A stretch of 64,000 nucleotides of DNA, from positions 1-64,000 of the forward strand of contig NZ_CP026949.1 in NCBI RefSeq assembly GCF_003065425.1, read 5' to 3'. How positions within the stretch are numbered: the stretch's first letter is position 1; each line of letters begins with the position of its first letter. A program made the position numbers and the translations under genes. This document shows positions 51,133-56,457 of this stretch, piece after piece. Source of the stretch: Mycetocola zhujimingii (GTDB lineage Bacteria > Actinomycetota > Actinomycetes > Actinomycetales > Microbacteriaceae). The notes below the pieces were generated by a model. It was given only the letters and a program-made list of their open reading frames with translations. It did not search any database and was not told where the DNA came from.

Positions 51133-52203
51133 TTACGCGGCGGACCAGCCACCGTCGCTCGCGAGGATGACACCGTTGACGTTCACGCCGTCATCACTGA
51201 GAAGGAAGGTGATGGACGCCGCGAGAGCGTCGCTCTCGACGGCATCCGGCATGACCGCCATTCCCGCACGGACGCGCTGCGCGCCGAGCTCTGACGCGAA
51301 TGTCGCCTGGATGTTCGTGATCGTCGGCCCGGGGGCGACAGCGTTGACCCGCACGCCACTCGGTCCGTACATGAACGCACTGCTCTTGGTGAGGCCGACA
51401 ACCGCGTGCTTCGACGCCGTGTATGCGGCGCCGGCAGCCGAGCCGCGAAGGCCGGCCTCTGACGCAACGTTGACGATCGAGCCGTACTCGCGAGCGAGCA
51501 TGAACGGCGCAACGGCCCGCATGAGCTTCATCGTTCCGTCGACGTTGATCGCGAAAACGCGCTTCCAGATCGAGTCCGAGATCTCGTGCACCGGCGTCAT
51601 GTCGTCCATGATGCCCGCAACGTTGGCGAGGGCGTCGATGGTTCCGCCGGCTGCCTCGATGATCGATGCGATCGCAGCATCGTCGGTGATGTCAGCAACG
51701 ACGGGCACGATCTCTGCATCGGGCAGTTCGGCGACGAGCTCGTCCAGGCGCTCGCTGGAGATATCGACAGCGATGACGCGTCCGCCCTCGCGGGCAACGC
51801 GCGACGCGGTTGCGCGTCCGATGCCGGAACCGGCGCCGGTCACGATGACGGTCTTTCCGGTGAAGCGACCGGTGCTGATGCGCTCGACCCACTGCGGGCG
51901 CTCAACCGGTGCTGCTGCCGGCGTGTCTGAGTCGGCTGCCGGTGCGGCATCCGTTCCCGGTGCGGACTGGGGGGCGTCGCCGGCGGCGGCGCGCTCGACG
52001 AGCGCATCGAGCATCTCCTGCGTGAAGGAGCCCTTGCTCAACGTCACGAGGCGCTTGATGGCGAGGCGGCGGACCGGGCGCATGACCTCGGGGGTCTGTC
52101 CTCCCTGGGCGAGCATGTCGCGGAGGATGGCGCCGCCGACGGGGTGATCGATCCAGGTGCCGATCGCGGAGTCGGCGGTGAGGGGAGTGGCCGTGTTTGT
52201 CAT
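51133..52203 (-). CDS. Short-chain dehydrogenase with an extra N-terminal domain
   Basis: The 356-residue protein has a classical SDR domain (about 112-356): cofactor motif TGAGSGIG (122-129), Asn220, Ser248, and Tyr261/Lys265 in YTASK. Residues 1-75 form a helical domain (IGTWIDHPVGGAILRDML, VMRPVRRLAIKRLVTL) like the small C-terminal segment of some GH3 glycosidases, then an Ala/Pro/Asp linker (76-103). The extra domain is unusual for SDRs. It is divergent from a TetR gene, whose operator lies between. Confidence 0.85.
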   Translation of the reverse strand: MTNTATPLTADSAIGTWIDHPVGGAILRDMLAQGGQTPEVMRPVRRLAIKRLVTLSKGSFTQEMLDALVERAAAGDAPQSAPGTDAAPAADSDTPAAAPVERPQWVERISTGRFTGKTVIVTGAGSGIGRATASRVAREGGRVIAVDISSERLDELVAELPDAEIVPVVADITDDAAIASIIEAAGGTIDALANVAGIMDDMTPVHEISDSIWKRVFAINVDGTMKLMRAVAPFMLAREYGSIVNVASEAGLRGSAAGAAYTASKHAVVGLTKSSAFMYGPSGVRVNAVAPGPTITNIQATFASELGAQRVRAGMAVMPDAVESDALAASITFLLSDDGVNVNGVILASDGGWSAA

Positions 52204-52262: not shown

Positions 52263-52820
52263 GTGCCACCCACAGCAAAAGCGAACCGCGGACCCAGCGC
52301 AGGGCCGGAAAACCGGCGCGCGCTGATCGCAGCTGCCCGCGAGGTTTTCGCGACCGACGGCCTCTCGGCGCCGCTCAGCGCCGTCGCTCGCCGGGCCGGT
52401 GTCGGCCAGGGCACCCTGTACCGGCACTTCCCCGAGCGGATGGACCTCGCTGTTGCCGTCTTCGACGAGAACCTCACCGAACTCGAGGCGTTTGTCGACA
52501 ACCCGGACTCGACGCTCGATGCCCTGCTCAACCTGGTCATCGAGCAGGCCGTCGTGTCGACGGCGTTCATCGACCTGATCTGGGCGAACTCACACGACGC
52601 GCGAGTGCTTCACCTGGGCGATCGGCTCCGGAGCATGGTTGAGCGAGAGCTCACCCGCGAGAAGGCGGCGGGGCGGATCGGAGCCCACGTCGACCCAGAG
52701 GACGTGCTGCTGGCTGTGTCGATGCTCGCGGGAGTTCTCGCCCGAACGGATGCCGACGACCGGCCGGCCGCCGGGCGCCGCGCCGTGACCCTGTTTACGC
52801 TGGCGTTCTCCCCGCGCTGA
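52263..52820 (+). CDS. TetR-family regulator of the adjacent SDR
   Basis: The 185-residue protein has an N-terminal helix-turn-helix (about 20-60: AAAREVFATDGLSAPLSAVARRAGVGQGTLYRHFPERMDLAVAV) and a helical ligand domain. GTG 52263 has TAGGCT ending six bases before it, a leaderless promoter. The inverted repeat at 52229-52248 should serve both this gene and the SDR. Its 3' end overlaps the convergent LLM gene by 26 bases. Confidence 0.9.
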   Translation: MPPTAKANRGPSAGPENRRALIAAAREVFATDGLSAPLSAVARRAGVGQGTLYRHFPERMDLAVAVFDENLTELEAFVDNPDSTLDALLNLVIEQAVVSTAFIDLIWANSHDARVLHLGDRLRSMVERELTREKAAGRIGAHVDPEDVLLAVSMLAGVLARTDADDRPAAGRRAVTLFTLAFSPR

Positions 52821-53721
52821 CCCCGCGAGCAGAGCGCTCCCGCGCGACGTTCTCGCGGACGCCCGCTGCCACCTCGGCGAAGAGTTCTGTGGTGCGCGCG
52901 TCGTCAGTGACCAGGATGAAGCCCGAGGTCCCGTACTCAAGGGCGATGCCGGTGAGCTGGTCGATCCATTGGTTTGCCGGTCCGACGAGCAGTCCCTGTC
53001 CAGCGGCAGTGAACCGTCCCGCGACGTTGAGCAGCCGGCGAATGTCTCGCGGGTCCCGCCCTGCACGGGTCGCGCCGTCATCGATGTGGGCATTCATCGC
53101 TGTGAGATCGCGCGGCCCGCCTGGCAGGTAAGCGAGGGAGGGCATCCAGCCGTCGGCGGCGCGGCCCGTCATGCGGAGAATCCTCGGTTTGAGCGCGCCG
53201 ACCCAGATGCCGATGTCGTGGGCGGGCTTCGGGCCCCGCTTGGCGCCGTCGACGCGGTGGAAGGAACCGTCGACGACCAGCCGACCGGGAGCATCCGCCG
53301 CCCAGATTCCGCGGATGATCTCGATCGCCTCTTCGAGAGCCTCGATCGACTCGCCCGGGGTGAGGCGCGTGCCACCCATCGCGACGATGGGGTCCCAGAA
53401 GCCGCCGGCGCCGATGCCGAGCTCGACGCGGCCGCCGCTGAGCAGATCGAGACTCGCGGCGCTGCGAGCGAGCACCGCTGGCTGGCGAAGCGGCAGGTTG
53501 AGCACGTTGGCGCTCAGCGAAATGTTCTCGGTCCTGGCCGCGGCGTATGACATCAGGGTCCAGGTGTCGAGGAAACCCGGCTGATACGGATGATCCTGGA
53601 AGGTCGCGAGGTCGAGGCCGGCGCGATCGGATACCACCGCCATCTCCACGGCGTGCATCGGCGGGTTGTTCGTGGGCGTGATGAACGTGCCAAAGAGCAG
53701 GTCGTGTCCATAGTCGGTCAT
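52795..53721 (-). CDS. LLM-class flavin-dependent oxidoreductase
   Basis: This 308-residue protein has the bacterial-luciferase-like TIM-barrel pattern: GTFITPTNNPP start, LSANVLNLPLRQPAVLARSAASLDLLSGGRVELGIGAGG, and IWVGALKPRILRMTGRAADGWMPS near the flavin site. Cofactor (FMN or F420) and substrate are not predictable. It overlaps the stop of the fusion gene by 4 bases, so they form one transcript, and its own 3' end overlaps tetR. It is a paralogue of the N-terminal domain of the fusion. Confidence 0.88.
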   Translation of the reverse strand: MTDYGHDLLFGTFITPTNNPPMHAVEMAVVSDRAGLDLATFQDHPYQPGFLDTWTLMSYAAARTENISLSANVLNLPLRQPAVLARSAASLDLLSGGRVELGIGAGGFWDPIVAMGGTRLTPGESIEALEEAIEIIRGIWAADAPGRLVVDGSFHRVDGAKRGPKPAHDIGIWVGALKPRILRMTGRAADGWMPSLAYLPGGPRDLTAMNAHIDDGATRAGRDPRDIRRLLNVAGRFTAAGQGLLVGPANQWIDQLTGIALEYGTSGFILVTDDARTTELFAEVAAGVRENVARERSARGVSAGRTPA

Positions 53722-56033
53722 GAGGTCGCCTCCGTGAGGGTCGCGTTACTGGGCGTCGGCGAGGTCGCCGCGGTGATGGGGAAGTTGTCCCGGAAGACGT
53801 GGTTCGGGTCGAAGCGTGCCTTGAGCTCACGAAGCCGGGTGAGCGTCTTCGGCGGGAACGCGTCGGCCAGCCGCTCGGGCCTCGTGTCGGTCTCGAAGCT
53901 CAGGTAGATGCCGTCGAAGAACGGGTACAGGGCCTCCCAGGCGGCATCGAGCCGCTGCCGGTTCGAGCCGAACGCGACAACCGAGAAGTTGGCGTTCCGG
54001 TGTGCGTACGCCGTGGCATCCGGATGGACGTCGGAAATCGCACCGCCGACCGCGCGGATCTGGAAGAAATAGACGATCCCGCTGGAGATGAGACGTGCCG
54101 CTTCGGCGGCAAACTCGGGGGTGATCTTCTCGAGCAGGCCGGTGCGTGTCACGGGCTGGCCCTGGCCGCCGTTGGACTCACCCTGCGCGTTGGCCATCAC
54201 CGCCGCGTATGACGTCAGTTGAACGGACTGGCTGTAGAGCGGGGAGATGTTCGCGAAGGGCTGGAGCCGCTCGACGATGGTGCCGGGGTCACTGGAGTCG
54301 ACCATCGCCATGATCTGGGCGACCGCGGGCTGGCCGGAGCGGGGAGGGCCCATGATCAAAAAGCTCGTGGTGTCACGGGGTGCCGTCTCGCTCAGGTGGC
54401 CCCAGGTCTCGAGGAAGCCGGCGGTGTCTGTCGCATCGAGCCCCAGTTGCGCCCAGCCGACGTCTCCGACCTCGTCCACCTCGAACTCGAAGGCGGTCAC
54501 GATGCCGAAGCTCGCCCCCGCGCCGCGGATGGCCCAGAACAGGTCCGCGTTCTCGGTGTCGCTCGCGCGGACGAGCGAGCCGTCCGCGAGCACCATCTCC
54601 ACTGAGCGGAGGTGGTCGATGGTGAGCCCGTGCTCACGTCCGAGGAACCCGACACCGCCAGCAGTGGCCAGCCCGCCGACGCCGACGCCGCCGTAGTCAC
54701 CCGAGCTCAGCGCCCAGCCGTACGGGGCCAGCACTGCGGCGATATCCATCCAGCGCGCGCCCGGCTCGATGCGGACCCGCCGTGTTTGTTCATCGATGAC
54801 GTCGATGCGGTTCATGTTCGAGAGGTTGATCACGATGCCGCCGTCGTTGGTCGACCTGCCGCTGATGCCGTGGCCTCCGCTCCGGATCGACAGCGGGAGT
54901 TCGGGGTGTTCGCGGGCGAACTCGAGGGCCGCGGCGACCTCTGCCGGGGTGTGAACCGGCAGGACGAGCCCGGGGGAGCCACCGCGCAGGTAGGTCGACT
55001 TCACCTTGGCATAGCCGAAGTCACCCGGCTCGATGGCGGCGTCGGCAAGAAGAGGCGGGACAGCGTCATAACGGATGCCCTCACGCCGTTTCGCGATCGC
55101 CGCCGACCTGCGGACGCGTGCGGTACGGGCAGGCTGGGGCAGCGCCGAGGTCACGGCCTCGCGCAGGGCGGGGACGACCTCGCTCGCGAATCGCTGCAGC
55201 ACTGCGTCGTCATCCGACGCCAGGAGAATGCCGCTTGCACCCTGGTCGATCACCAGGGGAAGCAGGTCGTTTACCCAGTCCGAGGCGGCTCCGGAGAGGA
55301 AGCTGTTTCTGGTGTTTGAGAATGTTCCGCGGATCGTCACGAGCCTCCGCACCTCGCGCGGATCGCGACCTGCGGCGCTCGCCGTCTCGTCGAGGAGCCG
55401 GTTGCGTGCCGCAAAGCTGGCGAATCCCGAGCCGCCGATCTCGGTGAGCCAGCCGTCTGCTTTCTCTGCCGCGAGTCGCACCAGCTGTGGGGTCCCGCCG
55501 TGGATCAGGATCGGTACGTCGTGCGCTGGCGCGGGGCCGGGCTGCGCACCGTTGACCCGGAAGACGTCCCCCGTGTACCGAACAGTGCCGCGCTCGCCGA
55601 CAGCCCACATGCGCCGGATGATGTCCAGTGTCTCCTCGGCGACCTCTGCGCTCTCCGCCGACTCGGCGGCATCCGCTGTGCTCTCGGCGCCGAGCGCAAC
55701 CGTGACTCTGCCGCCCGACAGAAGGTCGAGGCTTGCGGCAGCCCGCGCGGCAACGGCCGGAAAGCCGGAGGGGTCGACGGCGAGCTGCGCGAGGAGGCCG
55801 ATCCGGTCCGTGGTCCCGGCGATCCAGGCGAGGAGTGTCGCGTGATCGAGCCCCGCGGTCGTGGGTGACGAATCGTCGGGCGCGGAATCGTCCGACGCGG
55901 AATCATCGAACGCAAGGAGGTCGAATCCGAGGCGTTCCGCGAGCAGGGCTCGGTCGAGGACCGAGTCAGGCTCCGTACTCCCGGTTGCGAGAGCGACGCC
56001 GAAGATAAGGGGGTGGCCGTAATTCATGCTCAT
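53718..56033 (-). CDS. Fusion of LLM flavin oxidoreductase and berberine-bridge-type FAD oxidase
   Basis: One uninterrupted 771-residue frame joins two enzymes. Residues about 1-310 are LLM-class (FGVALATG start, LAVDPSGFPAVAARAAASLDLLSGGRVTVALG, GGTPQLVRLAAEKADGWLTE). A basic linker follows, then a PCMH-type FAD domain and BBE tail (about 345-771) with SGGHGISG, whose His is the usual covalent FAD residue, and GGLATAGGVGFLGREHG. The Cys used for a second covalent bond appears replaced by Tyr (SSGDYGGVG). The start among close ATGs (56027, 56033) is uncertain. A separate LLM gene follows and an HxlR gene is divergent. Confidence 0.88.
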   Translation of the reverse strand: MSMNYGHPLIFGVALATGSTEPDSVLDRALLAERLGFDLLAFDDSASDDSAPDDSSPTTAGLDHATLLAWIAGTTDRIGLLAQLAVDPSGFPAVAARAAASLDLLSGGRVTVALGAESTADAAESAESAEVAEETLDIIRRMWAVGERGTVRYTGDVFRVNGAQPGPAPAHDVPILIHGGTPQLVRLAAEKADGWLTEIGGSGFASFAARNRLLDETASAAGRDPREVRRLVTIRGTFSNTRNSFLSGAASDWVNDLLPLVIDQGASGILLASDDDAVLQRFASEVVPALREAVTSALPQPARTARVRRSAAIAKRREGIRYDAVPPLLADAAIEPGDFGYAKVKSTYLRGGSPGLVLPVHTPAEVAAALEFAREHPELPLSIRSGGHGISGRSTNDGGIVINLSNMNRIDVIDEQTRRVRIEPGARWMDIAAVLAPYGWALSSGDYGGVGVGGLATAGGVGFLGREHGLTIDHLRSVEMVLADGSLVRASDTENADLFWAIRGAGASFGIVTAFEFEVDEVGDVGWAQLGLDATDTAGFLETWGHLSETAPRDTTSFLIMGPPRSGQPAVAQIMAMVDSSDPGTIVERLQPFANISPLYSQSVQLTSYAAVMANAQGESNGGQGQPVTRTGLLEKITPEFAAEAARLISSGIVYFFQIRAVGGAISDVHPDATAYAHRNANFSVVAFGSNRQRLDAAWEALYPFFDGIYLSFETDTRPERLADAFPPKTLTRLRELKARFDPNHVFRDNFPITAATSPTPSNATLTEATS

Positions 56034-56066
56034 ACTCTGACGGACCATGGACATCGCCACCAACAC

Positions 56067-56093
56067 GAGGTAAGCTACTTACCTCAAGTAAGT
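56067..56093. promoter_or_regulatory. HxlR-type operator
   Basis: Two overlapping inverted repeats: GAGGTAAG/CTTACCTC around CTA (56067-56085) and ACTTAC/GTAAGT around CTCAA (56077-56093). They fill the gap between the divergent hxlR and fusion genes. Confidence 0.78.
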
Positions 56094-56100
56094 GGGGATC

Positions 56101-56457
56101 ATGCGCGCAACGAATTTTGAACACATCAATGACGACGAGTGCCGACAGTTTCAGGATGCCGTCGAACTCGCCGGACGCAAATGGAACGCCGCGATCCTGC
56201 TCGCCGGTGCGCGCGGAGCGCGGCGCTTCTCGGAGTACCGCGAGAGCATCGATAGCATCTCAGACCGGCTGCTCTCGGCGCGCCTTCGCGAACTCGAACT
56301 CGAGGGCCTGATCGAGCGGGACGTTACTCCGACCACGCCAGTGATGATCAGTTACACCCCGACGGAGGATGGTCGCAGGCTCATCACCCTGATGCATCCC
56401 CTGGTGCTCTGGGGGAGAAACCGGGCAGTGAAAACCCCGAGCGCGCTGAGCGCGTGA
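56101..56457 (+). CDS. HxlR-family transcriptional regulator
   Basis: The 118-residue protein is a single winged-helix HxlR domain (QDAVELAGRKWNAAILLAG, RRFSEYRESIDSISDRLLSARLRELELEGLI, SYTPTEDGRRL). One Cys near the N-terminus (NDDECRQF) is the usual redox-sensing position of the family. ATG 56101 has GGGGA upstream. Its promoter carries the paired repeats at 56067-56093; the divergent oxidoreductase fusion is the likely target. Confidence 0.9.
   Translation: MRATNFEHINDDECRQFQDAVELAGRKWNAAILLAGARGARRFSEYRESIDSISDRLLSARLRELELEGLIERDVTPTTPVMISYTPTEDGRRLITLMHPLVLWGRNRAVKTPSALSA

Follow-up and report, generated by a model that had tools for sequence, protein, structure and literature searches.

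Introduction

Bacterial luciferase, LuxAB, is a pair of luciferase-like monooxygenase (LLM) chains, and in the usual view the active site lies in alpha, with beta stabilizing alpha (PMC8301110). Here, we address a locus in the first 64,000 nucleotides of contig NZ_CP026949.1 of Mycetocola zhujimingii, a member of the Microbacteriaceae (this whole stretch is referred to as the window). The locus contains a gene in which an LLM barrel is fused to a predicted covalent-FAD oxidase, an overlapping gene for a second, standalone LLM oxidoreductase (LLM2), and a divergent gene for a HxlR-type regulator. Compared with the alpha/beta pair of LuxAB, the putative inactive partner is here fused to the oxidase, and it can shrink to a stub. 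EncM, the FAD-dependent oxygenase of enterocin biosynthesis, is without an LLM domain, and its O2-pocket residues V135/V136/T139 are D/Y/V in the window protein. The 6-hydroxy-D-nicotine oxidase and the mitomycin radical oxidase McrA have, to our knowledge, neither an LLM domain nor a HxlR-linked LLM gene. The F420-dependent LLM enzymes, such as Mer and FGD1, differ from the window system, in which neither cofD nor cofH was detected in the genome and the fused copy has no pocket motifs. The regulator resembles the HxlR/DUF24 (MarR/DUF24) regulators YodB, HypR and HxlR in its Pfam family, its N-terminal Cys and a palindromic operator between divergent genes, but unlike HxlR of B. subtilis it carries no Lys two residues past the Cys (PMC7835342).

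We favor, with slightly better than even confidence, a LuxAB-like pair of an active and an inactive LLM chain, under HxlR control, with the inactive chain attached to a covalent-FAD oxidase. The HxlR-controlled two-gene operon would yield a single assembly of two flavoenzymes. The fusion protein would combine an LLM barrel without catalytic activity with a covalent-FAD oxidase of the EncM/6-hydroxynicotine-oxidase type, and the overlapping gene would provide a live LLM oxidoreductase. The dead barrel would pair with the live LLM in the fashion of LuxB with LuxA and thereby tether it to the oxidase; both enzymes could then act on one small molecule, probably electrophilic or aromatic, that is sensed through the HxlR Cys. 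The history behind it is proposed more tentatively, at somewhat less than even confidence: a duplication of a fused TIM-barrel flavoenzyme would have been followed, in several lineages, by decay of the fused copy to a dimer-interface stub that serves solely to recruit the live paralogue to the covalent-FAD oxidase, leaving in living relatives a graded series from enzyme to docking module.

If true, this would be a further case, after LuxAB, of an LLM enzyme becoming an inactive partner. Since related bacteria carry forms that range from intact through partly decayed to nearly erased, the change from enzyme to binding module would be directly testable, and the locus would mark a common two-flavoenzyme module with redox-type control that appears not to have been studied.

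Loss of cofactor-pocket motifs in the fused LLM domain

Both LLM proteins of the locus belong to the family. The standalone LLM scores 159.9 bits against Pfam PF00296 (cut-off 27.9), and the fused domain is also over the PF00296 cut-off and has a predicted barrel fold with most strands kept. The standalone LLM contains DHPYQ, NVLNLPLR, GGFWD and AMGG; in the alignment, the fused domain has DSASD, QLAVDPSG and ESTAD in place of DHPYQ, N-V...PLR and GGFWD, and MGG is gapped. Judged by these conserved motifs (DH, the N-V cis-peptide site, PLR, GGFWD and MGG), the fused domain lacks a competent cofactor pocket. The DH is a general LLM feature, as it is kept in all four other aligned LLMs of the same genome, and the Ser72-Val73 cis peptide near the active site of Rh-FGD1 (PMC5352752) is matched in the alignment by N72-V73 of LLM2. 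The intact fused LLM domains of relatives are closer to the standalone LLM of the window (about 320-410 bits) than to its fused domain (about 144-242 bits). The alignments strongly suggest that the standalone LLM is live and the fused LLM domain of the window dead, and two homologous, co-encoded LLM chains, one with and one without the pocket motifs, are what a LuxAB-like pair would present. The original prediction had placed two flavin chemistries in one protein. Because the fused LLM half is without pocket motifs, this is unlikely in the window chain, where the claim probably fails; it is plausible in those relatives whose fused LLM is intact.

Motif loss and the presence of a neighboring standalone LLM

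The DH, the second (N-V...PLR) and the third (GGFWD) motif were scored in 76 fused domains. Where no LLM gene lay beside the fusion in the stretch examined, DH was kept in 50 of 51 fused domains; among the 25 with a standalone LLM beside them, six had kept DH and 19 had lost all three motifs. The standalone copies themselves kept DH in 27/27 and the second and third motifs in 26/27 each. For the sole exception among the 51 (L079), widening the locus (L093) revealed an intact LLM about 1.2 kb upstream. Duplicates (L003, L038, L053, L060) were left out of the count, as were, as fused domains, three loci with fewer than 200 residues ahead of the oxidase part (L048, L056, L057).

Ten further loci were fetched later, nine of them picked for a partial or fragmented fusion match. 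Since the pattern was already known before the fetch, they represent a check on new loci and no blind test. Six (L108, L109, L110, L111, L112, L115) have a remnant as N-terminal domain, each with an intact LLM directly downstream. In three (L113, L114, L117), the fused LLM is intact by its motifs and no standalone copy was seen; L116, broken into frames, was left unscored. Among the 76 counted domains and these ten loci, no degenerate fused domain without an intact LLM nearby was found. On the oxidase tree, the loss needs five changes.

What the degenerate domains retain

Twelve degenerate domains, one or two per genus, were compared in LLM2 numbering. The equivalents of H44, N72, L78, R79, F108, W109, M115-G117, K178 and N232 are kept in at most two of the twelve, and the deletions differ between lineages. 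Kept in all twelve are V83, A89, L91, D92, L94, G97 and R98, which lie within helix 3 or shortly after it. The fused domain is down to about 165-195 aa in four genomes read. In six extreme remnants, the GGFWD loop is gone and the four shortest align nothing from helix 4 to strand 5, with helices 2 (53-63) and 3 (81-95) wholly present in all six; identity to LLM2 is highest in helix 2, helix 3 and strand b6 (0.44, 0.47 and 0.43). In bacterial luciferase, the alpha/beta interface is made up of helices 2 and 3. The dimer of Rh-FGD1 is described as compact, with a buried area of about 2000 square angstroms (PMC5352752).

The ratio of nonsynonymous to synonymous substitution rates (dN/dS) of the degenerate fused domain is 0.18-0.45, and below 1 in 11/11 pairs of relatives (six of the pairs within Herbidospora); intact fused domains give 0.10-0.33 in six pairs. 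Between the window and its congener, the ratio is 0.25 for the fused LLM, 0.11 for the oxidase and 0.13 for the standalone LLM, with dS near saturation. By this measure, the degenerate fused domains stay under purifying selection. In the LLM tree, built from 86 rows with 21 others omitted as close or redundant, 19 of 20 standalone copies fall in one clade (SH-aLRT 96), which suggests that one old duplication gave rise to them. Most degenerate domains group together, and their order was not used, because the branches are long and the order unsure.

Taken with the pocket loss, we infer a physical pairing, in which the fused dead barrel would dock the live LLM, a reading that the sequences support moderately. 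Several points weigh against it. The counts include close relatives, with 8 of the 25 from one Herbidospora group, and the independent-pairs test of partner versus loss on the tree has too few pairs for significance. Most loci were taken with a 1.5 kb flank, at least 5 kb on both sides being covered in just 6/51, and L042 ends 358 bases away. The six fused copies that keep DH despite a standalone LLM indicate that the loss is not obligatory. Scattered residues (G163, P164, P166, G191, W192, R222, P286) are also kept in 12/12, so that retention in the twelve milder domains is not confined to an interface. The dimer interface of MsuD differs, using the barrel core and insertions (PMC8234197), and the dN of the degenerate fused domain exceeds that of the oxidase domain in 11/11 pairs, as that of a mere linker might.

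The last point leads to the strongest rival, in which the fused remnant has no partner and serves passively, as a linker or as an aid to folding, and the standalone LLM is an independent homodimer acting in the same pathway as the oxidase. We regard it as unlikely. The fast evolution of the fused domain and its shortening agree with it, but a dN/dS below 1 in every pair and the presence of helices 2 and 3 in all six extreme remnants do not, and the stub has not been deleted though a clean split of the fusion exists in nature (L105, L056). Clearly less probable is a fused LLM domain that is still catalytic with a re-built pocket, giving two flavin chemistries in one protein. Such a pocket would fit the predicted barrel of the window copy, the selection maintained on the domain and the intact fused pocket of relatives without a standalone LLM; against it stand the near absence of the equivalents of H44, N72 and the other residues named with them from the twelve degenerate domains, the lineage-specific deletions, and the constant presence of an intact LLM near the degenerate domains found. 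The docking of a live LLM by the dead barrel remains our preferred reading.

FMN or F420 as LLM cofactor

An F420/FMN-type LLM domain had been predicted. The family holds by Pfam, and the F420 part is not supported: neither cofD nor cofH had a match in the window's genome, which is rated 100% complete, making F420 use by this organism unlikely. FMN is the simpler reading for the live LLM of the window organism, which may alternatively salvage F420. The wider distribution speaks against a simple FMN reading. A cofD is present in 49/58 fusion-bearing genomes versus 82/241 other genomes of the family (Fisher p 2.5e-12, uncorrected for kinship), and in 13/15 further genomes queried cofD is over the cut-off. 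Nine of the 58 fusion-bearing genomes have neither cofD nor cofH.

As a separate observation, the FO synthase model cofH had no strong match in 65 of the 131 genomes of the family that carry cofD. Assembling F420 without making FO may be common in the family, or the gene may have been missed.

The FAD oxidase domain

The closest solved relative of the oxidase domain is EncM (E 1e-51), followed by the FAD-binding oxidoreductase 9p1o, 6-hydroxy-D-nicotine oxidase and mitomycin radical oxidase. The domain has the vanillyl-alcohol oxidase/berberine bridge enzyme (VAO/BBE) fold, and H399, invariant in 23 aligned sequences, aligns to EncM H78 and so is predicted to carry FAD covalently. Tyr458, invariant in the same sequences, occupies what we take, from motif alignment, to be the position of Cys166 of berberine bridge enzyme, so that the second, Cys link to FAD of the bicovalent enzymes is absent. 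The prediction of a covalent His without the Cys is therefore borne out.

The O2-pocket residues of EncM, V135, V136 and T139, correspond to D457, Y458 and V461 here, which are again invariant in the 23 sequences. An EncM T139V mutant gained oxidase activity (PMC7662398), and EncM is reported to be so far the sole BBE-like enzyme employing the N5-oxide (PMC11375781). For these reasons, the domain is expected to be an ordinary oxidase and not an N5-oxygenase. A true EncM-type flavin-N5-oxygenase, with the system as a biosynthetic tailoring enzyme, is very improbable and not supported, given the three replaced pocket residues, the effect of T139V (PMC7662398) and the lack of biosynthetic neighbors recurring across genera.

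HxlR control and gene neighborhood

The regulator is HxlR by Pfam (E 7.7e-21), and one N-terminal Cys is kept in 39/39 of its orthologues. The N-terminal Cys of the family has been reported as an electrophile/oxidant sensor, and formaldehyde sensing by HxlR requires a Lys two residues past it (PMC7835342). This Lys is absent from all 39 sequences, which excludes the Cys11/Lys13 type of formaldehyde switch for the window HxlR. With an HxlR domain, the conserved Cys and a palindromic operator, the regulator has the features of a HxlR/DUF24 electrophile sensor, and the Cys fits electrophile sensing.

The divergent promoter had been described as carrying two nested inverted repeats. Both repeats are present, GTAAG-N3-CTTAC (56070-56082) and CTTAC-N5-GTAAG (56078-56092), and since they share a half-site, they overlap and are not nested. 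The whole operator, GTAAG-N3-CTTAC-N5-GTAAG, occurs exactly in 7/37 divergent regions (0.0 expected in shuffles). Its right half, CTTAC-N5-GTAAG, is exact in 14/37, the window's own included (0.0 in shuffles), and present with at most two mismatches in 35/37 (1.4 in shuffles). HxlR control is thus borne out at the level of sequence, by the Pfam family and by an operator conserved in relatives. In nine other loci, a neighboring gene, mostly divergent, is a MarR-type regulator.

Among 29 loci, regulators are the only genes whose families are found next to the fusion repeatedly in different genera. Additional neighbors are common to four Herbiconiux-type loci, and a short-chain dehydrogenase/reductase (SDR) family is present in six loci at varied distances. 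A biosynthetic cluster was rejected on this basis, and the suggestion of a dedicated pathway is weakened; the locus looks like a self-contained module. A phage link was also considered, with no PHROG match. Sequence evidence for a substrate class is hardly there at all, and a quinone or aromatic substrate is a guess, helped by a single Streptomyces locus in which a Flavodoxin_2 gene is next in line.

Distribution and unfused relatives

A search for proteins with both domains in the same order had been proposed with the original prediction. With the fusion as query, 58 of 299 genomes of the family, counting that of the window, gave a match spanning nearly the whole query; these 58 represent 29 genera. 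The count is a minimum, because broken or very diverged copies turned up later. A class-wide sample gave matches in 57/394 genomes at E <= 1e-100, some over the oxidase part only. Relatives of the fusion occur in Okibacterium, Herbiconiux, Leifsonia, Herbidospora, Cellulomonas, Sanguibacter, Thermosporothrix and Ktedonospora, among others. Beyond the family, the fusion is also found in Streptosporangiaceae, Cellulomonadaceae and Chloroflexota. The layout is widespread, not rare. No characterized enzyme of this layout was known with the original prediction, in agreement with our literature searches, which, with most subscription journals outside their coverage and one listed flavoproteome paper (PMC9045290) left unread, found no paper on an LLM-FAD oxidase fusion.

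The two enzymes also occur together as unfused neighbors in two loci. On a Streptomyces plasmid, HxlR, LLM, FAD oxidase (with a 4-base overlap) and a Flavodoxin_2 reductase stand as separate genes in a row, and in a Ktedonobacteria genome HxlR, LLM and oxidase are all unfused.

Two loci deserve separate mention. In L048, on a contig labelled as a Bacteroidetes metagenome-assembled genome, the oxidase domain clusters with Chloroflexota copies on the tree, for which reason either mis-binning of the contig or transfer of the gene may have occurred. In L114 (G530), where the frame has 896 aa and a long linker, the fused LLM scores as the standalone type (388 vs 168 bits) and may be a re-fusion.

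Organization of the locus

The features are listed in Table 1. One open frame joining LLM and FAD oxidase and a second LLM gene overlapping its stop had both been predicted, and both are confirmed. The frame is intact, with Pfam domains Bac_luciferase at residues 22-254 (114 bits), FAD_binding_4 at 367-502 (109 bits) and BBE at 741-764 (23 bits). Third codon positions have a GC of 0.75-0.93 in ten segments, coding-like from end to end, junction included, and a second genome of the genus carries the same fusion with 72% identity; a frameshift, sequencing artefact or assembly error at the junction is therefore unlikely. The true start is probably the ATG of M14NYGH (56027) and not the GTG, because the start MxYGH of the paralogue is conserved. 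The ATGA overlap recurs in 18/27 loci.

Table 1. Features of the fusion locus; positions refer to the window, except in the last row.
Feature	Position	Strand	Remarks
Fusion gene, 782 aa, GTG start	53718..56066	-	LLM barrel, then EncM-like FAD oxidase; same architecture in relatives
Fused LLM domain, residues 18-304	55155..56015	-	(beta/alpha)8-like; cofactor-pocket motifs lost
EncM-like BBE/FAD_binding_4 oxidase domain, residues 327-768	53763..55088	-	
His399 codon	54870..54872	-	Counterpart of EncM H78 (predicted FAD attachment), by alignment
GDYGGVGVGGL, residues 456-466 of the fusion	54669..54701	-	EncM O2-pocket positions and presumed BBE Cys position
Standalone LLM oxidoreductase (LLM2), 308 aa	52795..53721	-	Pocket motifs intact; start overlaps fusion stop (ATGA)
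HxlR-type operator GTAAG-CTA-CTTAC-CTCAA-GTAAG	56070..56092	unstranded	Two inverted repeats with one half-site in common
HxlR/DUF24 regulator	56092..56457	+	Start GTG 56092 or, likelier, ATG 56101; sensing-type Cys codon 56140-56142
Unfused row HxlR, LLM, FAD oxidase, Flavodoxin_2	L105:7436-10795		Streptomyces sp. NBC_00316 plasmid

Beyond LLM2, the window contains SDR and TetR genes (51133-52203 and 52263-52820). As an Okibacterium locus (L038) has counterparts at about equal distances, they look like genus-level neighbors. Just past the window end (G000:C1:64539-65852) lies a paralogous FAD oxidase gene that stands alone and shares 36% identity with the oxidase domain of the fusion, and in the congener (G002) a gene similar to this paralogue lies about 8 kb from the fusion.

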